A stretch of DNA of 53,380 nt from Alphaproteobacteria bacterium (GTDB lineage: Bacteria; Pseudomonadota; Alphaproteobacteria; Ferrovibrionales; Ferrovibrionaceae): positions 1 through 53,380 of the forward strand of contig CANJGB010000024.1 of NCBI GenBank assembly GCA_947473805.1, given 5' to 3'. Positions 11,305 to 49,514 of this stretch are shown in pieces. Numbering within the stretch: position 1 is the stretch's first letter; the number at the start of each line of letters is the position of its first letter. Under the pieces are notes generated by a model. That model did not search any database. It was given only the letters and a program-made list of their open reading frames with translations, and was not told the DNA's origin. The position numbers were made by a program, and so were the translations under genes.

Positions 11305-12009
11305 ATGCCGGGCCAGAAATTCGTCGTCCTGTTGAAGGCGTCAGGGGATCGCCCCGCGTTCCGTCGCTGGGTCCTGGAACAATATGCACCAGGCCTGGTC
11401 AGTGCTCCCGATCTCACCGGCCTGACCGTCAACCTTGTCGATGTCACGCCCAATCTCGGCCAGCCCATGTCCACCGCCGGCGCAAAGCCGGCCGATGATG
11501 ACACGGCGTGCGATGCCACGCTGGAACTCTGGGCCAATGGCCGGCCGGCCACGCTCGACAAGCTGCTGAAGGATCGCACGCTCGCGGACAAGGCGAATAT
11601 TGTCGGCGCCTATCGCCTGTCGGAACATCCCAAGTTCGACCACCAGCCGGTAGCGAAGCCGGGCGCGCGCACCGTCGGCTTCAAGTTCCAGCCGCTGATC
11701 CAGTGGCGCGACGACGTCTCGGTGGCGGACGCGCGCCGCATCTGGGGCGAGCACATCTCCATCGTCCACGCCGTTCACCAGTACATGAGCAAGTACGTGC
11801 AGAACTGGGTCGAGGAGGAAATCGTCGCGGGTGACGTGCCGCGTAACGGCATGGCGCAGATCTGGTACAGCAACCTCGCCGACTTCGAGCAGCGCCACTA
11901 CGGCAATGACCAGGGTCTCGCCATCGTCCGCGCCGACACCACGCGTTTCATCAAGGGGGCGACACCGCTGTTCACCAGCGAATACGTGCTGAAGCGCCGG
12001 CCGCGCTAG
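11305..12009 (+). CDS. Two-repeat EthD/dimeric alpha-beta barrel protein
   Basis: A 234-residue cytosolic protein I read as two EthD-like ferredoxin-fold repeats. The first is FVVLLKASGDRPAFRRWVLEQYAPGLV (about 6-110); the second is GFKFQPLIQWRDDVSVADARRIWGEHISIVHAVHQYM (about 125-225). EthD-type barrels include small catabolic enzymes and accessory proteins that bind aromatic or oxidised ligands, but no function can be assigned here. A GGGGG ribosome site precedes the ATG. It diverges from the CoA-transferase gene and overlaps the 3' end of the LysR gene by 4 bases. Confidence 0.6.
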   Translation: MPGQKFVVLLKASGDRPAFRRWVLEQYAPGLVSAPDLTGLTVNLVDVTPNLGQPMSTAGAKPADDDTACDATLELWANGRPATLDKLLKDRTLADKANIVGAYRLSEHPKFDHQPVAKPGARTVGFKFQPLIQWRDDVSVADARRIWGEHISIVHAVHQYMSKYVQNWVEEEIVAGDVPRNGMAQIWYSNLADFEQRHYGNDQGLAIVRADTTRFIKGATPLFTSEYVLKRRPR

Positions 12010-12893
12010 GCCGTCTTCTGCGCCGACATCACCTCGACGAAGCGGGCGAGCGCCGGCGACTGGTTGTCGCGCCGCCATACGAGGTCAAGGTCCATCGGCA
12101 TGGCGAAGTCCGTCACCTTTTTCAGCACAACACCATCGGGCTTCTGGCTTTTCAGGGTTTCCAGCACGAAGTAGATGCCCATGCCCGCGGCGACGAGGTT
12201 GAGGATCAGCCCCTCCTCCACCGCCTCCTGCACCACCCGCGGCACGAAGCCGGCCGCCACGCAGCGCTCCATCCAGCGGTCGTACCAGTCGACCGAGACC
12301 GAACGTGGAAACCACAGGAAGTCCTCGTCGCGCAGGTCCGACATGACGATCTTGGCCCGCCGGGCAAGGCGATGGTGGCGCGGCACAGCCAACAGCCAGT
12401 CATCGACGCAGATGCGCTCGCTGGCCAGTTCCGGGTGGTCGGCCGGCAGGTAGAGCAGACCGGCATCCACCTCGCCTGAGCGCACTGCCTCCAGTTGCGG
12501 CGTCGTGGTCATCGGCAGCAGCTTCAGTTCAACGAACGGGAATTTGCGGCGAAAGGCGTTGAAAGCGGCAGGGATTTCCTTGTGGCGGGCAACCACCGGC
12601 TGGAAGCCGATCCGCAGCGTGCCGTGGTGCCCCGCCGCTGCCCGGCGGACCCGCTCGCTGGCCCGTTCGACATCCGACAGGATGCGCCGCGCCTCTTCAA
12701 GGAACAGGGTGCCCATGACCGACAGGCGGACCCGCTGGCGGCTGCGCTCAAACAGCTGCACGCCCAGCTCCCGCTCCAGGTGGCGAATCTGGTGCGACAG
12801 CGCCGACTGCACCAGGTTCAGCCGTTCGGCCGCCCGGTGGAAGTTCTCCAGTTCGGCGACGGCAACGAAATATCGAAGGTGGCGGAGTTCCAT
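12006..12893 (-). CDS. LysR family transcriptional regulator
   Basis: A 295-residue LysR-type regulator: N-terminal winged helix (MELRHLRYFVAVAELENFHRAAERLNLVQSALSHQI, about 1-60) followed by a two-lobed periplasmic-binding-like effector domain (about 90-290). It is transcribed away from the hydrolase-LLM operon starting at 13083, the classic layout for a LysR gene controlling its divergent neighbour. A T-N11-A site inside a GATGA-N10-TCATC inverted repeat lies 10 bases before its start. The effector is unknown; a substrate or intermediate of the adjacent operon is likely. Confidence 0.9.
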   Translation of the reverse strand: MELRHLRYFVAVAELENFHRAAERLNLVQSALSHQIRHLERELGVQLFERSRQRVRLSVMGTLFLEEARRILSDVERASERVRRAAAGHHGTLRIGFQPVVARHKEIPAAFNAFRRKFPFVELKLLPMTTTPQLEAVRSGEVDAGLLYLPADHPELASERICVDDWLLAVPRHHRLARRAKIVMSDLRDEDFLWFPRSVSVDWYDRWMERCVAAGFVPRVVQEAVEEGLILNLVAAGMGIYFVLETLKSQKPDGVVLKKVTDFAMPMDLDLVWRRDNQSPALARFVEVMSAQKTA

Positions 12894-13082: not shown

Positions 13083-13892
13083 ATGTCGGTTGAACAGATC
13101 AACGTCGATCTGCCCCATGGCCGTGTGAACGTCTTGGCTTCCGGCAGCGGCCCCACTCTTGTCGTGCTCCACCGCGACAACGGCCGTTTCGGGTTCGGCA
13201 AGTTGCATGAACGGCTGGCAAAGTCGCTCCGCGTTGTTGCCCCCGCCCTGCCCGGCTACGACGAATCTGACCGCCCGACCTGGCTGCGCAATGTCCCCGA
13301 TCTCGCCGCCCTGACCGGCTTCGCCCTCGACAAGATGAACATCGGCCCGGTCGCGGTTCTGGGCTTGGGCTTCGGCGGCTGGGTCGCCGCTGAGCTGGCG
13401 GTCCACAGCCCGAAACGGGTCAACCAGTTGCTGCTGCACTCGCCGATGGGCGTGAAGCCGACCGAGGGCGAGATCGCCGACCAGTTCCTGTTCGAGCCGG
13501 AGAACTACGTGAAGCGGGGCTTTACGTCGATCGAAGCCCATGAGCGCAGCTTCCCCGGTGGCGATGCGAAGTACATGGAGCAGTGGGACAAGAACCGGGA
13601 AATGACCACCCGCATCGCCTACAAGCCGTACATGTTCGACCTGGCCCTGCCGCACCTGCTGAAGAGCCTGAACGTGCCGGCCCTGGTGTCTTGGAGCACC
13701 GGCGACAAGATCGTCCCGAAGTCCTGCGCCACCATCTACAAGGACGCGATTCCGGGCGCCAAATATGTCGAGCTGCCGAATACCGGCCACAACGCCGACT
13801 TCGAGACGCCCGACGCGGTCGCCGACATGGTGCTGCGCCACCTCGAGGCTACCGGCTACCTCAAGTCCGCTGGCAACCGCGCCGCCAGCTAA
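13083..13892 (+). CDS. Alpha/beta-hydrolase fold protein lacking the nucleophile
   Basis: A 269-residue alpha/beta-hydrolase fold protein. The nucleophile elbow reads VLGLGFGGW, with Gly96 at the place where Ser, Cys or Asp is normally found (codon GGC at 13368). The acid (Asp208 in WSTGDKIV) and His236 (NTGHNADFE) are kept. It may therefore not be a classical esterase; it might catalyse a nucleophile-free reaction, as cofactorless dioxygenases and hydroxynitrile lyases of this fold do with altered residues, or serve as a binding partner. It is first in the operon with the LLM gene 36 bases downstream. A GGAGG site precedes the ATG. Confidence 0.85.
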   Translation: MSVEQINVDLPHGRVNVLASGSGPTLVVLHRDNGRFGFGKLHERLAKSLRVVAPALPGYDESDRPTWLRNVPDLAALTGFALDKMNIGPVAVLGLGFGGWVAAELAVHSPKRVNQLLLHSPMGVKPTEGEIADQFLFEPENYVKRGFTSIEAHERSFPGGDAKYMEQWDKNREMTTRIAYKPYMFDLALPHLLKSLNVPALVSWSTGDKIVPKSCATIYKDAIPGAKYVELPNTGHNADFETPDAVADMVLRHLEATGYLKSAGNRAAS

Positions 13893-15170: not shown

Positions 15171-15212
15171 CGTTTGTTTGCGTTGCTACGTGTATCCACC
15201 TGGGAGGACAAA

Positions 15213-16427
15213 ATGAAGTCTGTAAAATTGCTTTCGTCTTTGGCGTTCGGCGCTTCCGCGCTGGCGCTGGTGCTCGCCGCCCCGGCCAGTGCCCAGACCA
15301 AGGAGCCGCTCAAGGTCGGCGCACTGATGTCGATGACCGGCAGCGGTGCATCGGTCGGCGCGGCCTCGCTGCTCGGCCTGCGCATGGCCATGTCCGAGAT
15401 CAACGCGGCCGGCGGTATCCTCGGCCGCCAGGTGCAGATCGTCCAAGGCGATGATGCCACCGACACCACCAACGCAGTGACCGAGGCCAAGCGCCTGCTG
15501 TTCCAAGAGAAGGTGCAGATCATGTACGGGCCGCAGTTCAGCCCGCCAAGTCTCGCCGTCGCCAATGCGGTCGCCAAGACCGAAACCGGCATCACGTACT
15601 GGAGCTTGGCCACTGCTTCGGCGTTCACCCCCGAGGTTGCGCGCACCGCCTTCTCGTTCGGCCCGTCCGGCGACGCGCTGGCGGAAGCGATGGTCGATTA
15701 TGCTATCAACACCCGCAAGGCGAAGTCGATCGGCTTCCTGTATGACGACGCGCAGCAGTCGGCTCTGATCTACGAAACGATCAAGGGCCTGATGAAGGCA
15801 GCGAACCGCGAGCTCGCCGGCGTCGACCAGTACCAGCTCAACGCGCCCGACGTTACCCCGCAGCTGCTGAACCTGCGCCGCAAGGGCGTGGACTTCGTGC
15901 TGTTGCAGGCACAGAGCCCGATCGATACCGCCACGGTGATGAAGAACACCGAGCAGATCGGCTGGGACATCAAGTACGCCGGCAACAACGGCGCCGTGGT
16001 GAACTTCCCGGTCATGGCCAAGAACGCGGGCCCGACCGCGATCAAGGCCCTCGTCGCCGGTGTCAGCGTCAAGGCCTTCTCGGCTTGCGCGGCCGACCCG
16101 CTCGGCCAGTCGGAATACGTGAAGTACACCGAGCGTCTGAAGAAGTTCGAGCCGAACCTCAATCCGCAGATCGGTCTCACCACCGTCGTGCAGTACTACG
16201 ACATGGCCTACCTGTCGAAGGCGGTTGCGGAAGCTGTCGGTTCCACCGACGGCATGAAGATGACCGAAATGCTCGAGCAGAACTCGGGCAAGTTCAAGAC
16301 CATCGTCGCGCCCGAACTGCGCATCACCCGCACCAACCACTTCCTCGCCACGGCCGCCGCGCTGACCATGGCCGAGGACATGGGCAATACACGTGCGGAC
16401 GGCCTGTACAAGCGGGCTGGCTGCTAA
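15213..16427 (+). CDS. Branched-chain amino acid-type ABC substrate-binding protein (orphan)
   Basis: Periplasmic type I binding protein (Peripla_BP_6/LivK family), 404 residues. The ATG at 15213 is chosen because GGGAGG at 15202-15207 precedes it and it opens a classic signal peptide, MKSVKLLSSLAFGASALALV, ending ASA-Q. The mature part starts LKVGALMSMTGSGASVGAASLLGLRMAMSEINAAGGILGR, diagnostic of the family. In proteobacteria this family binds many aromatic and organic acids as well as amino acids. No Liv-type permease or ATPase is nearby. Its place between two LLM paralogs suggests capture of the LLM substrate (inference). Confidence 0.88.
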   Translation: MKSVKLLSSLAFGASALALVLAAPASAQTKEPLKVGALMSMTGSGASVGAASLLGLRMAMSEINAAGGILGRQVQIVQGDDATDTTNAVTEAKRLLFQEKVQIMYGPQFSPPSLAVANAVAKTETGITYWSLATASAFTPEVARTAFSFGPSGDALAEAMVDYAINTRKAKSIGFLYDDAQQSALIYETIKGLMKAANRELAGVDQYQLNAPDVTPQLLNLRRKGVDFVLLQAQSPIDTATVMKNTEQIGWDIKYAGNNGAVVNFPVMAKNAGPTAIKALVAGVSVKAFSACAADPLGQSEYVKYTERLKKFEPNLNPQIGLTTVVQYYDMAYLSKAVAEAVGSTDGMKMTEMLEQNSGKFKTIVAPELRITRTNHFLATAAALTMAEDMGNTRADGLYKRAGC

Positions 16428-16437
16428 AGACGGAGCT

Positions 16438-16469
16438 GGCGCCGCGCGCAACCCGCGCGGCGCCTCTTT
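16438..16469 (+). terminator. Rho-independent terminator-like hairpin
   Basis: GGCGCCGCGCG (16438-16448) pairs perfectly with CGCGCGGCGCC (16454-16464) over a 5-base loop, followed by TCTTT. It begins 10 bases after the binding-protein stop. It may end or attenuate the operon before the SnoaL-LLM pair. Confidence 0.65.
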
Positions 16470-16550: not shown

Positions 16551-17060
16551 ATGGATCTGGCTCAACGTCTCGAAGCGGTGGAAAAGCGCCTGCGCTACCT
16601 GGAAGACCAGGAAAAGATCCGCGAGTGCCTGCACACCTACGGCTTCAATGCCGATCTCGGCCGGTCCGAGAAGTGGGCAGATGGCTGGACGCCCGACGGC
16701 GTCTACGACCTCGAAGACCAGAAATGGCGCGGCCGGGACGACCTGCTCGACCTGATCGGCGCGCCGATGAACAATCACAAGCAGATCGAAAACCGCAGCC
16801 AGCACGCCATGCTGAACCTGTTCATCCGCATTGAGGGCGACACCGCCTGGGCGGAGGGCTATTCGGCGACCATCGTGCGCAAGACGCCCGAGAAGATCGA
16901 ACTGTGGACCTGCGCTTACAATCATTTTGAATTCGTCCGCTCAGGCGAACGCTGGCTGCTCAAATACCGGACCCGCCGAAACATCGGCGGCGACGAATGG
17001 GGCGGCAAGGCGATCCGGAAATACTTGGACGACGACGGCTCACATACCTCCGCGACCTGA
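16551..17060 (+). CDS. SnoaL-like (NTF2 fold) domain protein 1
   Basis: A 169-residue protein of the SnoaL/NTF2-like cone fold. The N-terminus is a short coiled helix (LAQRLEAVEKRLRYLEDQEKIRECLHTYGFNADLG), then the beta-rich cone with DGVYDLEDQKWRGRDDLLDLI and YNHFEFVRSGERWLLKYRTRRNIGG. The ATG at 16551 follows CAGGGAGG with 6-base spacing, preferable to the TTG at 16545. Relatives include polyketide cyclases, dehydratases and ring-hydroxylating dioxygenase small subunits. It sits 21 bases before an LLM gene. A similar protein at 47162 also precedes an LLM gene. Confidence 0.75.
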   Translation: MDLAQRLEAVEKRLRYLEDQEKIRECLHTYGFNADLGRSEKWADGWTPDGVYDLEDQKWRGRDDLLDLIGAPMNNHKQIENRSQHAMLNLFIRIEGDTAWAEGYSATIVRKTPEKIELWTCAYNHFEFVRSGERWLLKYRTRRNIGGDEWGGKAIRKYLDDDGSHTSAT

Positions 17061-17081
17061 ATTCAGCCAAGGAAGACCAAT

Positions 17082-18320
17082 ATGTTTCTCTCCTATTTCA
17101 CGGAACAGCCCTACTCGGCCCTGGACCACGAGGAGTCGAACAAGCTTTATCCATTCGACCATCCGGCCCGCCGTGCCGGCGATAACGTGCTGGTCCACTC
17201 GAACAAGTTCTTCAATCCCGTCGAAGGCGCCCGCCTCTACAACGAACGCCTGACCGAGTACGAGCTGGCCGACAAGGTCGGCTTCGACGGCATCATGCTG
17301 AACGAGCACCACAATTCGGCGTTCTGCATGCAGCCGCGCCTGACGGTCATGTCCTCGATGGTTGCGGCGCGCACCAAGCACGCCAAGATCGTGCAACTCG
17401 GCAACCCGCTGCCGGTCTGGGACAACCCGGTGCAGTTGGCCGAAGACACCGCCATGATCGACATGATCTCGGGCGGCCGCCTGGTCGCCGGCGTGGTGCG
17501 CGGTGGCGGCGCCGAGCAATTGGCCAACAACGTCAACCCCGCCTACAACCGCGACCGCTTCGCCGAGGCGCACGACCTGCTGATTGATGCCTGGACGAAG
17601 CCCGGTCCGTTCCGCTGGGAAGGCGAGCATTATCAGGTGCGCGTCGTCAATCCGTGGGCCACGCCGCTGCAGAAGCCCCATCCCCGCGTCTGGGTTCCGG
17701 GCCTCGTCAGCAAGGAGACGATCGAATTCGCCGCCGCGCACGGCTACCCGTATGTGTGCCTGAACACGACCGTCGAGGACACCAAACGCATTTGGGCCTT
17801 CTATGATTCGCTGGCCGCCAAGGCCGGCTTCGAGGGCGGCCCGGCCTATCGCGGCTACCTGATGCGTGTGCACGTCGCCGAGACCGAGGAAAAGGCCAAG
17901 CAGAACGCGCGCGAGTTCCTGTGGCTGGCCGGTTCGTTCGCGGGCTACGGCAGCCCGACCTGGATCTCGCCCACCGGCTATACCAGCTTCGAGGCGCGCA
18001 ACGCGCGCTCGTCGCACAACAAGGTGATGTCCGACTTCGAGGCCCAGCTGGAAATGGGCACCATTATTGCCGGCACGCCGAAGCAGGTGATCGAGCGCAT
18101 CGGCTGGTGGCTGAAGGAAACCAAGCCGGGCATGCTGATGCTGTGGCTCAACGACGGCCACATGGACCACCAGACGTCGATGAACTGCATCGGCATGATG
18201 GGGGAGTCCGTGCTGCCGGAACTGCGCAAGATCGGCAAGGAACTGGGCCTGCACGATCCGTTCGAGATCAACGCGCCGGTCAGCCTGAAGTATATGAAGC
18301 AGAAGAGCCACGCGGCCTGA
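17082..18320 (+). CDS. LLM class flavin-dependent oxidoreductase (paralog 2)
   Basis: A 412-residue luciferase-like monooxygenase, paralog of the protein at 13929-15170: same start (MFLSYFTEQPYSAL), same FDGIMLNEHHN, VQLAEDTAMIDMISGGR, AGVVRGGG and HPRVWVPG blocks and same C-terminal LGLHDPFEINAPVS. It is preceded by the SnoaL-like gene and followed after 7 bases by an SDR, so the three are likely co-transcribed. Divergence lies mainly in the 325-400 region and around the substrate side of the barrel, suggesting related but different substrates (inference). Confidence 0.9.
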   Translation: MFLSYFTEQPYSALDHEESNKLYPFDHPARRAGDNVLVHSNKFFNPVEGARLYNERLTEYELADKVGFDGIMLNEHHNSAFCMQPRLTVMSSMVAARTKHAKIVQLGNPLPVWDNPVQLAEDTAMIDMISGGRLVAGVVRGGGAEQLANNVNPAYNRDRFAEAHDLLIDAWTKPGPFRWEGEHYQVRVVNPWATPLQKPHPRVWVPGLVSKETIEFAAAHGYPYVCLNTTVEDTKRIWAFYDSLAAKAGFEGGPAYRGYLMRVHVAETEEKAKQNAREFLWLAGSFAGYGSPTWISPTGYTSFEARNARSSHNKVMSDFEAQLEMGTIIAGTPKQVIERIGWWLKETKPGMLMLWLNDGHMDHQTSMNCIGMMGESVLPELRKIGKELGLHDPFEINAPVSLKYMKQKSHAA

Positions 18321-18327
18321 TCCATCC

Positions 18328-19071
18328 GTGACGTTTAGGGGACTGGCCGGCAAGGTCGCGATCGTCACCGGTGCCGCGGGCGGCATCGGTGGCGCCGTGG
18401 TCGAGCGCCTGCTTGACGAGGGCGCGAAGATCGTCGCGGTCGATCTCCGCGCCCCGCAGCACGCCTCCCCCAATGTCCTCGGCGTCGCCGCGGATGTTTC
18501 CAACGAACAGGGCTGTAGCGACTATGTCGCTGCCGCGGTCGCAAAATTCGGCTCTGTCGATCTTTTCGTGAACAATGCCGGTATCGTCGGCCATCGCGCG
18601 CCGATGGTCGAGATCGAGGTTGCCGAGTTCGACCGCGTCCATGCGGTCAATGTACGTGGCGTGTTCCTCGGCCTGCGCGCCGTCCTGCGCCATATGATCG
18701 CGCAGGGCAAGGGTGGCGCCATCGTCAACACGTCGTCAGTTGGTGGCTTGAAATCATTTCCTGGCGCCACCGCCTATGGCAGCGCCAAGCGCGCCGTCAT
18801 TGCCCTGTCGCAGACTGCGGCACTTGAGAATGGCAGACATGGCATCCGTGTGAATGCGATCTGCCCCGGCCCCATCGCGACGGCGATGCTTGGCCCTGCC
18901 CTCGCCAGCGCCACGGGCGGCGATGGCAGCGGCACGTTCTCGCACCTGCCGATCCCGCGCGTCGCCGCACCGGCGGAGGTCGCGGCCTTCATCGCCTATC
19001 TGTTGAGTGACGAGGCCAGTTTCCAGACCGGCGGCGTCTATACCGTCGACGGCGGCCTGATGCTGCTCTAG
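18328..19071 (+). CDS. Short-chain dehydrogenase/reductase (SDR)
   Basis: Classical SDR of 247 residues, NAD(P)-dependent. GTG start at 18328. The cofactor motif is TGAAGGIGG, then NNAG, the catalytic Ser in NTSSVGG, YGSAK (Tyr and Lys), and a typical C-terminal TGGVYTVDGGLMLL. An acidic residue (VDLRAP) at the end of beta-2 suggests NAD preference. It is the last gene of the SnoaL-LLM-SDR run and overlaps the 3' end of convergent lpxB by 4 bases. Likely oxidises an alcohol produced upstream in the pathway (inference). Confidence 0.92.
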   Translation: MTFRGLAGKVAIVTGAAGGIGGAVVERLLDEGAKIVAVDLRAPQHASPNVLGVAADVSNEQGCSDYVAAAVAKFGSVDLFVNNAGIVGHRAPMVEIEVAEFDRVHAVNVRGVFLGLRAVLRHMIAQGKGGAIVNTSSVGGLKSFPGATAYGSAKRAVIALSQTAALENGRHGIRVNAICPGPIATAMLGPALASATGGDGSGTFSHLPIPRVAAPAEVAAFIAYLLSDEASFQTGGVYTVDGGLMLL

Positions 19072-40460: not shown

Positions 40461-41174
40461 ATGGCGAAGAAGAACGAGCGCGTCTACCTGCACGAATATA
40501 TCGACATCATCCTTCACCATCGCGCTGACTATTTCGAGCACATGACGGTGGGCTGGAAGGAAGCCGCCGCCGAGCGCGGCAGCCGCACCGTCGGCATCTG
40601 GGGCAGCTTCGGCAGCACCGGCCGGTGGCCCGAGGTGGTCAACCTCTGGGAATACGACAACTGGGAGATGGTCGCGAAGATCTTCGCCCATGAGAGCGGC
40701 GGCAAGAACATGCAGGACCCCACGCTCAAGGAGTGGTGGGCCAAGGCGCAGGCGTTCCGCAGCGGCGGCTGGGACCGTCTCCTGCTGCCGACCGACTACA
40801 CGCCGGGCATCGAGGAGATCTGCCAGAAGGGCATGATCAAGCATCGCGTCTATTGCCAGGAACGCATCAACATCACGCCGGGCCAGTCGGAAACCTATCT
40901 CGACATGCTGGGCGAGCATTTCCTGCCCATCGCCAAGGAGCTGGGTATGGACCTGATCGGCGCCTACAACACGGCGCTGCGCAACGATTCCGAAGCCTTC
41001 GTCATCTGGGGCATCAAGACCTGGGAAGACTGGGCGCGGATCGAACAGGCCTACCAGAAGTCTGACAAGATCAAGGCGTGGCGCGCACGCACCAGCGGCA
41101 TCGCCCTCGACTGGGTGAACCTGCTGATGTGCAACGCGCCGCAATCGCCGCTGGAGACCGGGCGCCAGCCCTGA
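40461..41174 (+). CDS. Two-repeat NIPSNAP-like alpha/beta-barrel protein, copy A
   Basis: A 237-residue protein that looks like two ferredoxin-fold repeats of the NIPSNAP/dimeric alpha-beta barrel type. Repeat one: VYLHEYIDIILHHRADYFEHM ... IWGSFGSTGRWPEVVNLWEYD (about 8-70). Repeat two: RVYCQERINITPGQSETYLDML ... LIGAYNTALRNDSEAFVIWGIKTWEDW (about 128-205). No signal peptide or catalytic motif I can name. It is a tandem paralog of the next gene, with the same ending NAPQSPLETG. It follows the importer terminator. Function unknown. Confidence 0.7.
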   Translation: MAKKNERVYLHEYIDIILHHRADYFEHMTVGWKEAAAERGSRTVGIWGSFGSTGRWPEVVNLWEYDNWEMVAKIFAHESGGKNMQDPTLKEWWAKAQAFRSGGWDRLLLPTDYTPGIEEICQKGMIKHRVYCQERINITPGQSETYLDMLGEHFLPIAKELGMDLIGAYNTALRNDSEAFVIWGIKTWEDWARIEQAYQKSDKIKAWRARTSGIALDWVNLLMCNAPQSPLETGRQP

Positions 41175-41208
41175 TCTTCACCCTGCCGATATTTTGAGGA
41201 GTTCGACC

Positions 41209-41922
41209 GTGGGCAAGAACAAGAAAGTCTACCTGCACGAATACATCGACATCATCCTGCACAATCGCGGGAATTATTTCGAGCACATGACCATCGGCTG
41301 GAAGAAGGCGCAGGCCGAGCGCAAGCAGCGCACCTTCGGCATCTGGGGCACGTTCGGCAGCACCGGCCGCTGGCCCGAAGTGGTGAACCTGTGGGAGTTC
41401 GACAGCCTCGAGGACATGGCGTTCGACTACAGCCACGAAACCGGCGGCAAGAACATGCAGGACCCGTCGCTGTTCGAGTGGTGGGCCAAGGCGCAGACGA
41501 TGCGCAGCGGCGGCTATGACCGCATCCTGTATCCGACGGATTACTCCATGGGCATCCAGGAGATCTGCCAGAAGGGCCTGATCAAGGACCGCGTCTACTA
41601 CCAGCAGCGCATCGCCATCACGCCCGGCCAGGCCGACACGTATCTTGAAATGCTCGGCGACCACTGGATGGACACCGCGAAGAAGGATTTCGGCATGAAC
41701 CTGCTCGGCGCCTACAAGACGGCGCTGCGCAACGATTCCGAGGTCTTCGTCCTGTGGTCGTTCAAGACCTGGGAGGAATGGGCGGCCATGGAGAAGGCCA
41801 CCCGCACGTCGGACAAGATCAAGGCGTGGAACGCCCGCACGCAAGGCATCGCCATCGACTGGCTGAACACCTGTTTGTGCAACGCGCCGCAATCCCCGCT
41901 GGAAACCGGCCACGCCCCCTGA
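41209..41922 (+). CDS. Two-repeat NIPSNAP-like alpha/beta-barrel protein, copy B
   Basis: Tandem paralog of the preceding gene, same length (237 residues from the GTG at 41209; GAGGA at 41197-41201). It shares VYLHEYIDIILH, FGSTGRWPEVVNLWE, GGKNMQDP and the NAPQSPLETG ending, in collinear order. The main differences lie in the central loop at about 70-110. Two similar subunits kept side by side suggest a heteromeric complex or two related ligands. Function unknown; an accessory role to the importer or the acyl-CoA pathway is inference. Confidence 0.7.
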   Translation: MGKNKKVYLHEYIDIILHNRGNYFEHMTIGWKKAQAERKQRTFGIWGTFGSTGRWPEVVNLWEFDSLEDMAFDYSHETGGKNMQDPSLFEWWAKAQTMRSGGYDRILYPTDYSMGIQEICQKGLIKDRVYYQQRIAITPGQADTYLEMLGDHWMDTAKKDFGMNLLGAYKTALRNDSEVFVLWSFKTWEEWAAMEKATRTSDKIKAWNARTQGIAIDWLNTCLCNAPQSPLETGHAP

Positions 41923-45411: not shown

Positions 45412-46503
45412 ATGCGGCAGGAGGCCGCCATCAGCAACAGCCAAACATACAAGGATGCAGGCGTCGATATCGACGCTGGCGATGCCCTCGTCGAAGCGAT
45501 CAAGCCGCTGGCCGCCGCCACGCGCCGCCGCGGCGCCGACGCTGCGCTTGGCGGGTTCGGTGCATTGTTCGACCTTAAGGCCGCCGGCTTCAAGGACCCC
45601 GTCCTCGTCGCCTCGACCGACGGTGTCGGCACCAAGCTGAAGGTCGCCATCGAAACCGGCCTGCATGACGGCGTCGGCATCGACCTGGTCGCCATGTGCG
45701 TCAACGACATCGTGGTCCAGGGCGCCGAGCCGCTGTTCTTCCTCGACTATTTCGCGACCTCACGCCTCGACGTGACGATGGGCAAGGCCGTCGTCGCCGG
45801 CATCGCCAAGGGCTGCGAGATTGCCGGCTGCGCACTGATCGGCGGCGAGACCGCCGAAATGCCCGGCATGTACGCCAAGGGCGATTACGACCTTGCCGGC
45901 TTCTCGGTGGGTGCGGTGGAACGCGACCGCCTGCTCACCGGCAGCAACATCAAGGTCGGCGACGTGCTGCTGGGCCTCGCCTCGTCCGGCGTGCATTCCA
46001 ACGGCTTCTCGCTGGTCCGCCATCTCGTCACCCGCTCGGGCCTGTCGTATGACGCACCGGCGCCGTTCGCGCCGGGCAAGACGCTGGGCCAGGCGCTGCT
46101 GGAGCCCACGCGCATCTACGTGAAGCCCTGCATAGCCGCCATCAATGCCGGCCTGATCAAGGGCCTGGCGCATATCACGGGCGGCGGCCTGGTCGAGAAC
46201 ATTCCCCGCGTCCTGCCCAAGGGCACCGTCGCCGCCATCGACGCCACCAAGTGGGAGCGGCCGAAGGTGTTCGACTGGCTGCAGGAGATCGGCCAGGTCA
46301 CCGACCACGAAATGGCCCGCACGTTCAACTGCGGTATCGGCATGGTCCTCGTCGTCCCCGCCGTGCATGCCGGCAAGGCGAAGGGCATGCTCGAGGGCGA
46401 AGGCGAGACCGTGTTCGAGATTGGCCGCCTTGAGGCCGGCGCCAGCGACACTGCCGAGGCGGAAACTCGCCTCACCGGCACGGAGCGCGCGTGGCACGGC
46501 TGA
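45412..46503 (+). CDS. purM: Phosphoribosylformylglycinamidine cyclo-ligase
   Basis: Fifth step of purine synthesis: closes FGAM to AIR with ATP. The 363 residues from the ATG at 45412 start [21 protein letters not shown], followed by [36 protein letters not shown] and [13 protein letters not shown]. Upstream codons extend into the divergent promoter region. It overlaps purN by 13 bases, as commonly seen. Confidence 0.96.
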
Positions 46504-47135
46504 AGGTCGGGGTGCTGATATCGGGCCGGGGCAGCAATATGGGCGCGCTGCTTGAGGCCTGCGCCAACCCGGCCTTCCCGGCCGAAATTGTCACCGTCAT
46601 TTCGAACAAGGCCGACGCCGCCGGCCTCGCCACCGCGCACGCCGCGGGCGTGCCCACTGCAATTGTCGATCACCGCAACCGCAGCCGCGAGGATTTCGAG
46701 GCCGAGCTCAATGCCGCGCTGAAAAGTGCCGGCGTCGAACTGATCTGCCTCGCCGGCTTCATGCGCCTGCTCACCGCCGGTTTCGTCACCCCGTGGTACG
46801 GCCGCCTGATCAACATCCATCCCAGCCTGCTGCCCGCCTTCCAGGGCATCAACGTGCACGCGCGCGCGCTGGCCGCCGGTGTCCGCTTCACCGGCTGCAC
46901 CGTGCATTTCGTGCGGCCGGAAATGGATGACGGCCCGATCATCATACAGGCCGCCGTGCCCGTCGCGCCGGGCGACACGCCCGAGACGCTGGCCGCCCGC
47001 ATCCTCGTCGCCGAGCATCGCATCTATCCGCAGGCGCTGCGCTGGATCGCCGAGGCGCGCGTGCAAATCGACGGGAACATTGTCCACCTTGCCGGCGCCC
47101 GCGCCGTGGAGGAGGCTGTTATCAACCCGCAATAA
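46491..47135 (+). CDS. purN: Phosphoribosylglycinamide formyltransferase PurN
   Basis: Third step of purine synthesis, using 10-formyltetrahydrofolate. The 214 residues from GTG 46491 show [17 protein letters not shown], the catalytic Asn/His in [20 protein letters not shown], and the Asp in [14 protein letters not shown]. It overlaps purM by 13 bases. It marks the right end of the conserved core; an accessory block follows after 26 bases. Confidence 0.96.
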
Positions 47136-47653: not shown

Positions 47654-48561
47654 CCCTGCGCGTCGGGCTGCAGATCGTCGGCGCCGAGAAATTCTTCGGC
47701 GGCGATGTAAAGGGCCTGCTCGACATCGCCAAGCGCGCCGACGCCCGTGGCATCGACGTCATCTCCATCGGCGACCACGTGGTGATGAGCGGTACCGACG
47801 TCGCCACCTACAAGACCGCGCCAAAATTCCCGCTGCCGCTCGACCAGCCATTCTTCGAAGTCATCTCGCTGATGAGCGCGATTGCCGTGCTGACCAAGCG
47901 CATCCGCCTCTCGGCCAATGTCCTGCTTTCGCCGCTGCGCCCGGCGGTGCTGATGGCCAAGCAGCTCGCCACCCTCGACGTGCTGTCCGATGGGCGCGTC
48001 GAGATGGCGCTCGGCACAGGCTGGCAGAAGGCAGAGTACGATGCTTCCGGTATCGACTTCGCTTCCCGCAACGGCCATCTCGCCGAACAGGTCGAGGCCT
48101 TTCGCGTGCTGTGGAGCGGCGGTCCGGCCAGCTACCACGGCAAGCACGTCAACTTCGACGATCTCTACTGCTATCCGCTGCCGGTACAGGGGGCGAAGAT
48201 GCCCGTGTGGCTCGGCGTCTCGGTGCACGGCCGCAATGGCGAGCGCCTGGTGCGGCTCGCCGATGGCTGGGCCGCACCACCCACGAAACCGGACAAGTTC
48301 GCCGATGACATGGCCCATCTGCGCAACCTCTGCGCCAGGCAGGGGCGCGCGCCCGCCAGCCTCGGCATCCGCGTCTCGATCATGCCGGCGCGCCATGCGG
48401 ACGGCACGCCCGACCCGGAGACATCGTTCAAGGATGCCCCGGCATTGATCGCCGCCGGCGCCGACACGATCATGGCGTCGGTCATCAACTTCTGCCCCAC
48501 CGCCGCCGACATCGACCCGTTCCTCGACCGCATGGTCGAACTGAAACGAACCGGCCGCTAG
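47650..48561 (+). CDS. LLM class (F420-type) oxidoreductase, copy 3
   Basis: Luciferase-like oxidoreductase of 303 residues resembling the Rv2161c-like group often annotated as F420-dependent. Landmarks: ADARGIDVISIGDHVVM, LTKRIRLSANVLLSPLRPAVLMAKQLATLDVLSDGRVEMALGTGW and KMPVWLGVSVHGRNGERLVRLADGW. GTG start inside the SnoaL stop, so the two proteins are made together. Cofactor (FMN or F420) and substrate cannot be settled from sequence. It converges with the next LLM gene (4-base overlap). Confidence 0.88.
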   Translation: MTLRVGLQIVGAEKFFGGDVKGLLDIAKRADARGIDVISIGDHVVMSGTDVATYKTAPKFPLPLDQPFFEVISLMSAIAVLTKRIRLSANVLLSPLRPAVLMAKQLATLDVLSDGRVEMALGTGWQKAEYDASGIDFASRNGHLAEQVEAFRVLWSGGPASYHGKHVNFDDLYCYPLPVQGAKMPVWLGVSVHGRNGERLVRLADGWAAPPTKPDKFADDMAHLRNLCARQGRAPASLGIRVSIMPARHADGTPDPETSFKDAPALIAAGADTIMASVINFCPTAADIDPFLDRMVELKRTGR

Positions 48562-49514
48562 AGCTTGCGCAGCGCAGGCCCCAGTTCGTCCTTGTAGAAC
48601 TTGATGAAGGCGTCCTGGTTCGGGCCGATGGCGGTGATCGCCACGTGGTCGAAGCCCGCCTTCACATAGGCCTTGATCGCCTTCAGGTGCGTTTCGACAT
48701 CCGGGCCGCACGGGATCTCGGCGATGTCTTCTTTGCGCACGCTCTTCACCGCCGCATCGAAACTTCCCGGCGTCGCCAGTTCCGCATTCACTTCCCAGCC
48801 CAGCGTGCCGAAGCGAAAGCGTTCGTGCGCAACGGTCAGCGCCTTGTCCACGCTGGCCGCGTAGCTGATCGCCACCTCACCATAGCGGCTACCCTTGCCG
48901 CCTGATTTACGCCAGGCATCGATCAGCTTCTTCTCGGGCTCGGTGCCCATGATGCCGCTGCCCGTCTCCGCCGCCAGCGCAGCCGACTTGTCGCCGCTGA
49001 TGCCGACGACGATGTCAATCGGCTTGGCCGGCAGGTCGTACAGGCGCGCCCGCTCCAGCTGGTAGTAGCTGCCGAGATACGAACACTGCTCGCCCTGCCA
49101 CAGCAGCCTGATGATCTCGATCGCCTCGCGCAGGCGCTCGTGCCGCTCATCGACCGCCGGCCAATGCTCGCCGGTAATATGCTCATTCAGCCGCTCACCT
49201 GCGCCCAGCGCCAGGGTGAAGCGCCCGTCGCACATCACCGCCACCGTCGCCGCCGCCTGCGCGACGATGGCCGGGTGATAGCGGATCAGCCGACAGGTCA
49301 GGCCGGTCGCGATGCCGACCTTCCTGGTCGCCTGCGCCACGCCGCCCAAGACGCTCCACGCAAACGGCGAATGGCCCTGCGCCTCGTGCCACGGCAGGTA
49401 ATGATCCGAGATAGCGACGAAATCGAAACCGGCCTCCTCGGCCAGCACCGCGTTGCGCACGAGGGCCTTCGGACCGTGCTCCTCGGACATCAGCTTGTAA
49501 CCGAATTTCGTCAT
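48558..49514 (-). CDS. LLM class F420-dependent oxidoreductase (G6PDH-family type), copy 4
   Basis: A 318-residue protein of the F420-dependent glucose-6-phosphate dehydrogenase-like LLM group. The start FGYKLMSEEHGPKALVRNAVLAEEAGFDFVAISDHYLPW, GLTCRLIRYHPAIVAQAAATVAVMCDGRFTLALGAGERLNEH and IVVGISGDKSAALAAETGSG are typical. That group normally uses cofactor F420, so its presence hints that the host makes F420 (inference). It is the last gene of the minus-strand MFS-MFS-OYE-LLM run. Confidence 0.88.
   Translation of the reverse strand: MTKFGYKLMSEEHGPKALVRNAVLAEEAGFDFVAISDHYLPWHEAQGHSPFAWSVLGGVAQATRKVGIATGLTCRLIRYHPAIVAQAAATVAVMCDGRFTLALGAGERLNEHITGEHWPAVDERHERLREAIEIIRLLWQGEQCSYLGSYYQLERARLYDLPAKPIDIVVGISGDKSAALAAETGSGIMGTEPEKKLIDAWRKSGGKGSRYGEVAISYAASVDKALTVAHERFRFGTLGWEVNAELATPGSFDAAVKSVRKEDIAEIPCGPDVETHLKAIKAYVKAGFDHVAITAIGPNQDAFIKFYKDELGPALRKL

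Follow-up and report, generated by a model that had tools for sequence, protein, structure and literature searches.

Two places in the window (the whole 53,380-nt stretch of alphaproteobacterial DNA analysed here) carry a SnoaL-like gene directly upstream of a gene for a luciferase-like oxidoreductase (LLM). This raises the question of whether the two neighbours form a dedicated two-part oxidoreductase, as the original prediction proposed, with the cone-fold SnoaL protein in complex with the LLM and either binding its product or completing the reaction, or whether common enzymes came together separately at each place. We consider the latter probable: the two adjacencies would be independent arrangements of common catabolic enzymes, and the core of locus 1 would be a module of a hydrolase and an LLM.

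Two SnoaL-LLM pairs and their surroundings

The window genome (G000) comprises 3.31 Mb in 58 contigs and is 95% complete. The predicted arrangement, a SnoaL-like gene directly before an LLM gene, was confirmed at both loci (Table 1). At locus 1, the genes of SnoaL_4 protein 1 (SnoaL-1) and LLM copy B (LLM-B) are separated by 21 bases, and at locus 2, those of SnoaL_4 protein 2 (SnoaL-2) and LLM-2 overlap by 4 bases. A GGGAGG sequence, read by eye and resembling a ribosome-binding site, precedes the ATG of SnoaL-1. SnoaL-1 and SnoaL-2 scored 76.4 and 82.2 bits against PF13577 (SnoaL_4, cut-off 24), while LLM-B and LLM-2 scored 146 and 140.6 bits against PF00296 (cut-off 27.9). The two remaining window LLMs, among them LLM copy A (LLM-A), are also over this cut-off (145.4 and 143.2 bits).

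Table 1. Features of locus 1 and locus 2, with positions in the window
Locus	Feature	Position	Strand	Basis
1	Putative LysR-like regulator	12006..12893	-	Gene call; divergent to the operon
1	Alpha/beta hydrolase without nucleophile serine (GLGFGG, Gly96; Asp208 and His236 kept)	13083..13892	+	Pfam Abhydrolase_6/1; alignment A4; serine column of PDB relatives
1	LLM copy A, 413 aa	13929..15170	+	PF00296
1	ABC substrate-binding protein (Peripla_BP_6)	15210..16427	+	Pfam
1	Perfect 11-bp G+C-rich hairpin	16438..16464	+	Between the binding-protein gene and SnoaL
1	SnoaL_4 protein 1, 169 aa	16551..17060	+	PF13577; profile A3 matches PDB 2rfr, BaiE
1	LLM copy B, 412 aa	17082..18320	+	PF00296
1	Short-chain dehydrogenase (SDR)	18328..19071	+	7 bases past LLM copy B
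2	Formyltransferase (purN-like)	46491..47135	+	One Formyl_trans_N match in the neighbour tally, presumably this gene
2	SnoaL_4 protein 2, 163 aa	47162..47653	+	PF13577
2	LLM-2, TIGR03619 subfamily, 303 aa	47650..48561	+	PF00296 and TIGR03619
2	Convergent LLM, TIGR03557 subfamily	48558..49514	-	PF00296 and NCBIfam

The two LLM partners belong to different subfamilies, as had been predicted. LLM-2 passed the TIGR03619 cut-off (192.5 vs 166.9), none of the 19 NCBIfam matches of LLM-B was over its cut-off, and the LLM tree placed the two proteins in separate clades. With the SnoaL proteins only 30% identical and the LLM clades different, the copying of one cassette to both loci was rejected, in agreement with the original prediction. 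The coiled N-terminal helix that the prediction ascribed to both SnoaL proteins is real, but it is general to this SnoaL_4 group and no mark of pairing, since five of the seven members of alignment A3 that have it lack an adjoining LLM.

The plus-strand genes of locus 1 form a co-directional run of hydrolase-like protein, LLM-A, ABC binding protein, SnoaL-1, LLM-B and SDR, which presumably is one operon and would be transcribed as such. We take the divergent regulator to be LysR-like from its N-terminal sequence, read by eye. The 53-nt stretch holding the hairpin folds at -30.2 kcal/mol (z -3.8 vs shuffles), and the hairpin was absent from the output of the terminator scan. It is a possible attenuator or mRNA stabiliser, and the two halves of the operon may be expressed differently.

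LLM-A and LLM-B are 67% identical, and both have the Asn-Glu-His-His that is invariant in their group (hereafter LLM-1). In the simplest history, the LLM gene would have been duplicated, and the binding-protein and SnoaL genes would have ended up between the copies, in that presumed direction and order of time. That LLM-B is a degenerate copy was rejected: alignment A5 has 122 columns without variation among the other eight LLM-1 homologues, and LLM-B departs at 5 of them, all outside the Asn-Glu-His-His motif. The corresponding figure for LLM-A is 10 of 127.

At locus 2, SnoaL-2 starts 26 bases after the purN-like gene, so that read-through from a purine operon may reach the pair. Elsewhere in the window (40461-41922), two similar neighbouring genes, the first a NIPSNAP match, lie behind an NMT1/THI5-like transporter protein.

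Frequency and inheritance of the SnoaL-LLM adjacency

G000 has 30 SnoaL_4 and 43 LLM genes over the cut-offs, and a same-strand LLM lies directly downstream of 3 of the 30, against 0.2-0.4 expected under uniform placement. The Poisson p of about 0.001-0.007 is optimistic, because two of these three pairs had prompted the question; the third is at C2:109290-110684. Two class genomes of a single genus, G261 and G340, have four and two same-strand pairs with fewer than 500 bases between the domains (expected 0.18 and 0.19), which brings the three genomes together to nine pairs vs about 0.57 expected. Since two of the G261 pairs are tree sisters of both G340 pairs, the independent cases are fewer. 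G340 has three further pairs within 800 bases, of which two are on opposite strands and two involve weak or partial SnoaL matches. The genome survey that the original prediction called for therefore came out in its favour as far as uniform placement is exceeded in G000, G261 and G340, but that model is blind to the clustering of catabolic genes.

Such clustering, together with chance, could by itself have produced the pairs, with SnoaL and LLM functionally unrelated. The two families are large in G000, and locus 2 stands behind a housekeeping gene of the formyltransferase type. Among same-strand neighbours of SnoaL_4 genes (gap <150 bases), SDR families outnumber PF00296 (12 vs 7 of 65, as raw counts uncorrected for family size). 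Of 105 SnoaL_4 genes, 91 were located, and the tally covers their 65 distinct neighbours. Our gene caller, an in-house composition heuristic whose start codons, and hence some overlaps, are unreliable, missed the other 14, including the G261 C253 pair. Against this explanation, both window pairs are co-directional and tightly spaced, and uniform placement is exceeded; we regard it as unlikely.

Co-variation of the two families, a further expectation of the original prediction, did not appear. We compared totals in 11 genomes, having counted adjacency itself in G000, G261 and G340 and taken the other eight by totals only. SnoaL_4/LLM counts were 30/43 in G000 (over cut-off) and, at E<=0.001, 37/53 in G261, 41/49 in G340, 4/42 in G003, 4/4 in G014, 2/59 in G028, 4/53 in G083, 10/50 in G084, 2/55 in G202, 6/32 in G142 and 4/19 in G245. 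Abundant LLMs stand alongside few SnoaL_4 proteins, and the Spearman rho was -0.20 (p 0.55) in this non-random sample, eight of whose 11 genomes were chosen for their LLM-1 homologues.

We then considered how the pairing is distributed on SnoaL_4 trees. The label "beside an LLM" changes six times on a tree of 40 proteins, ten of them LLM-adjacent, and seven times on a tree of 105 rows, where contig ends and one split pair inflate the number. Among the "unpaired" rows of the larger tree, G340 C230 stops at a contig edge and G340 C5:10248 is followed by an LLM after about 1.1 kb; three of 108 SnoaL_4 matches (G340 C117, C42 and C234) were excluded from it as short or weak. The labels are more clustered than in shuffles, of which 8 of 500 and 0 of 500 gave as few changes, a result to which near-identical orthologues contribute.

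Five of the ten LLM-adjacent proteins form one group (G000 C2; G261 C101 and C294; G340 C5 and C10; support 92/86), which two unpaired G000 proteins join in the 105-row tree. Their LLMs come from a single clade that also contains LLM-2. The SnoaL gene comes first in G000, and the LLM gene comes first in G261 and G340. Judged from these trees, a SnoaL_4/LLM cassette at these five places looks inherited. Across 385 class genomes, profile A1, built on the group, matched 24 places, all in seven genomes, and among its 19 other places an LLM-labelled gene lies within the 1.5-kb flanks at two (G261 C213 and its G340 counterpart). In G261 C101 (L085, 1613-3891) and G340 C10 (L083, 1248-3526), an LLM, a SnoaL_4, a CrcB (PF02537) and a second SnoaL_4 gene follow one another on one strand. 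PF02537 is the fluoride channel family, and the place of such a channel between two folds of the lyase type is a possible hint of organofluorine chemistry.

SnoaL-1 and SnoaL-2 fall outside this five-member clade. The closest paralogues of SnoaL-1 (C1:92426 and C13:25240) and of SnoaL-2 (C1:43148, C1:263914 and C15:36815) have no LLM nearby: four lie 11.7-130 kb from the nearest one, and the C13 contig has none. At E<=1e-25, searches for orthologues of either protein in the family (18 genomes each) returned own-genome matches only, and SnoaL-1 had no match in another genome among 337 of the class, its own included, leaving no orthologous locus for comparison. Scanned with SnoaL-1, genome contigs yielded a single locus (L028), weak and partial, in which no gene is labelled LLM. 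Against plasmids, SnoaL-1 found no match and LLM-2 matched one record. Such paralogues and six to seven label changes do not support co-inheritance of the partners at the window loci. Seven of ten G000 genes in the LLM-2 clade have no SnoaL neighbour, vs two that have one; the remaining gene was not called.

Taken together, it now appears improbable that the window loci encode a dedicated two-part system. In favour of such a system are the short gap or overlap at three G000 loci, the same-strand pairs of G261 and G340, and the SnoaL_4 clade that pairs with the clade of LLM-2. Against it are counts that do not co-vary, the repeated label changes, the varying gene order, window SnoaL proteins outside the inherited-looking clade with paralogues away from LLMs, an LLM-2 clade mostly free of SnoaL neighbours, and a conserved neighbour of LLM-1 that is a hydrolase. 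The excess in three genomes and the one inherited-looking clade still make functional coupling likely at some loci. The SnoaL-LLM adjacency is, as a system, ordinary, and a separate cassette elsewhere in the class remains a candidate.

An alpha/beta hydrolase is the conserved partner of the LLM-1 subfamily

The search for LLM-1 homologues at E<=1e-80 gave 17 places, spread over 11 of 337 class genomes, own genome included; three of the places are in G000. At 15 of the 17, the next gene upstream, on the same strand, matches our hydrolase profile, and in the window such a gene precedes LLM-A. Of the two exceptions, one starts at a contig end; the other is LLM-B, which has SnoaL-1 instead. The conserved partner of this subfamily is an alpha/beta hydrolase, not SnoaL. 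Within G000, where 42 of the 43 LLMs were called, the hydrolase precedes 7 of 8 LLM-1-clade genes vs 0 of 34 other LLMs, although the profile was built from LLM-1 partners and unlike hydrolases near other LLMs would escape it. The label is that of our own profile, and Pfam confirmed six members and two plasmid ones, among them the archaeal one described below. In a reverse search, nine hydrolases of the glycine type described below found eight places in 3 of 398 phylum genomes, with an LLM directly downstream at all eight; three of these places belonged to the query.

The pair also occurs on plasmids of named Alphaproteobacteria and Actinomycetota. Eight of the 32 plasmid records that contain an LLM-1 homologue were examined, with homologues 29-38% identical to LLM-B. 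A same-strand gene annotated as an alpha/beta hydrolase adjoins the LLM in seven, on either side; in the eighth, which is archaeal, the hydrolase lies one gene away and belongs to another Pfam family (Abhydrolase_3). A flavin reductase is annotated near the LLM in two of the eight, and none was found among the six scanned genes of the window operon. On Agrobacterium tumefaciens plasmid pAtCFBP6625a (L203, 1515-5176), an alpha/beta hydrolase, an LLM, a SnoaL protein of another family (PF07366) and a flavin reductase share one stretch. Its SnoaL gene overlaps the end of the LLM gene by 4 bases, the only SnoaL-adjacent case among the eight and a further point for a dedicated system. Around one hydrolase-LLM pair of G083 (L050, 3-12140), our profile labels ten genes as LLM in a space of about 12 kb.

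The window hydrolase lacks the nucleophile of a serine-type enzyme (Ser, Cys or Asp at the elbow), having Gly96 in this position. Profile alignment places this glycine on the serine of GNSLGG in PDB chains 5jz9 and 7zjt, which we take to be HsaD. Among 15 aligned partner hydrolases, the elbow residue is glycine in nine, the window's included, and serine in six. The nine glycine-type rows (A4) have the elbow motif GLG(F/L)GG, and in all of them Asp208 and His236 are invariant and align with the Asp and His of the PDB relatives. A motif scan found the serine in five of seven G000 partner hydrolases; as these and six of the 15 partners keep it, only a subgroup has lost the nucleophile. From the aligned residues, a classical serine-esterase mechanism is unlikely for the window hydrolase and possible for its relatives, and an esterase or lactonase annotation of the closest partners is probably wrong. 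A single-sequence AlphaFold model of the hydrolase reached a pLDDT of 41 and was set aside.

A hydrolase-fold protein without its nucleophile beside an LLM is a more unusual feature than the SnoaL-LLM adjacency. The idea of a SnoaL-LLM system is weakened for the window loci, and the better-supported association is that of an LLM subfamily with an alpha/beta-hydrolase-fold partner.

A putative pathway for locus 1 and its likeness to known systems

Locus 1 is best read as a hydrolase-LLM module within a catabolic operon whose enzymes would work successively on a single imported substrate. We propose that the LLMs, as FMN-dependent enzymes, would oxygenate this substrate, which might be a ketone undergoing a Baeyer-Villiger reaction. 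With its Asp-His pair, the hydrolase-fold protein might then process the product by general acid/base chemistry. SnoaL-1 could act on a later intermediate as a stand-alone, BaiE-like lyase or dehydratase, and the SDR would supply a redox step, in whatever order these steps may follow. If the LLM-hydrolase pair is a Baeyer-Villiger module, the loss of the nucleophile raises the question of how the product is opened. A bolder version, which we hold to be a long shot, has the hydrolase act on the oxygenated product as an acid/base lyase through its His and Asp, and lets SnoaL-1, with its conserved Tyr, Asp and His, replace it beside LLM-B, so that two unrelated folds would serve the same step for paralogous oxygenases.

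Within the literature searched, no title or abstract opening names a SnoaL-LLM pair. In the portions available of three papers, snoaL appears in the references only (PMC8093152), both products are among the regulated genes under distant locus tags (PMC10413115), or both belong to one antibiotic gene cluster and are non-adjacent in its table (PMC10697411).

Two catabolic systems resemble parts of locus 1. In uracil catabolism, one operon encodes the LLM RutA and RutD, an alpha/beta-hydrolase-fold protein with a non-canonical nucleophile. RutA was a PDB match of LLM-2 and is not listed for LLM-B; the likeness to RutD is one of description. In the limonene pathway, LimA, a cone-fold epoxide hydrolase, acts on the product of the LLM LimB. 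LimA belongs to a family other than SnoaL_4, PF07858, and this likeness too is one of description.

For SnoaL-1, the invariant residues of A3 are Tyr30, Asp35 and His85, which presumably resemble the active-site residues of BaiE. The A3 profile matches BaiE at E 1.4e-5, with the SnoaL/NTF2 cone fold in common, but comes closest in the PDB to 2rfr (E 9.7e-43), a chain of an uncharacterised protein. For LLM-B, 3,6-diketocamphane monooxygenase is a weak sequence match (E 1.5e-7); RslO1 (7bip), alkanal monooxygenase chains and 2i7g match more closely in the PDB, and the matches to RslO1 and alkanal monooxygenase, the best, fit an FMN-dependent oxygenase. A histidine of the Asn-Glu-His-His motif is catalytic in luciferase.

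In PMC13101464, BaiE and SteC, both SnoaL/NTF2 proteins, are described as dehydratases on steroid rings. The LLM of the Caenibius tardaugens pdc cluster converts progesterone to testosterone acetate (PMC12239570); it and the diketocamphane monooxygenases, as type II Baeyer-Villiger monooxygenases, have the PF00296 fold in common with our LLMs. In Sphingobium sp. AntQ-1, the LLM gene and the Abhydrolase_6 gene of the pair sphantq_4473/4474 are contiguous and are induced by anthraquinone; PMC9836352 proposes Baeyer-Villiger oxidation of anthraquinone and then hydrolysis of the lactone. Likened by description rather than by sequence, this pair shows the same contiguity of LLM and hydrolase as locus 1, where the hydrolase lacks the nucleophile serine.
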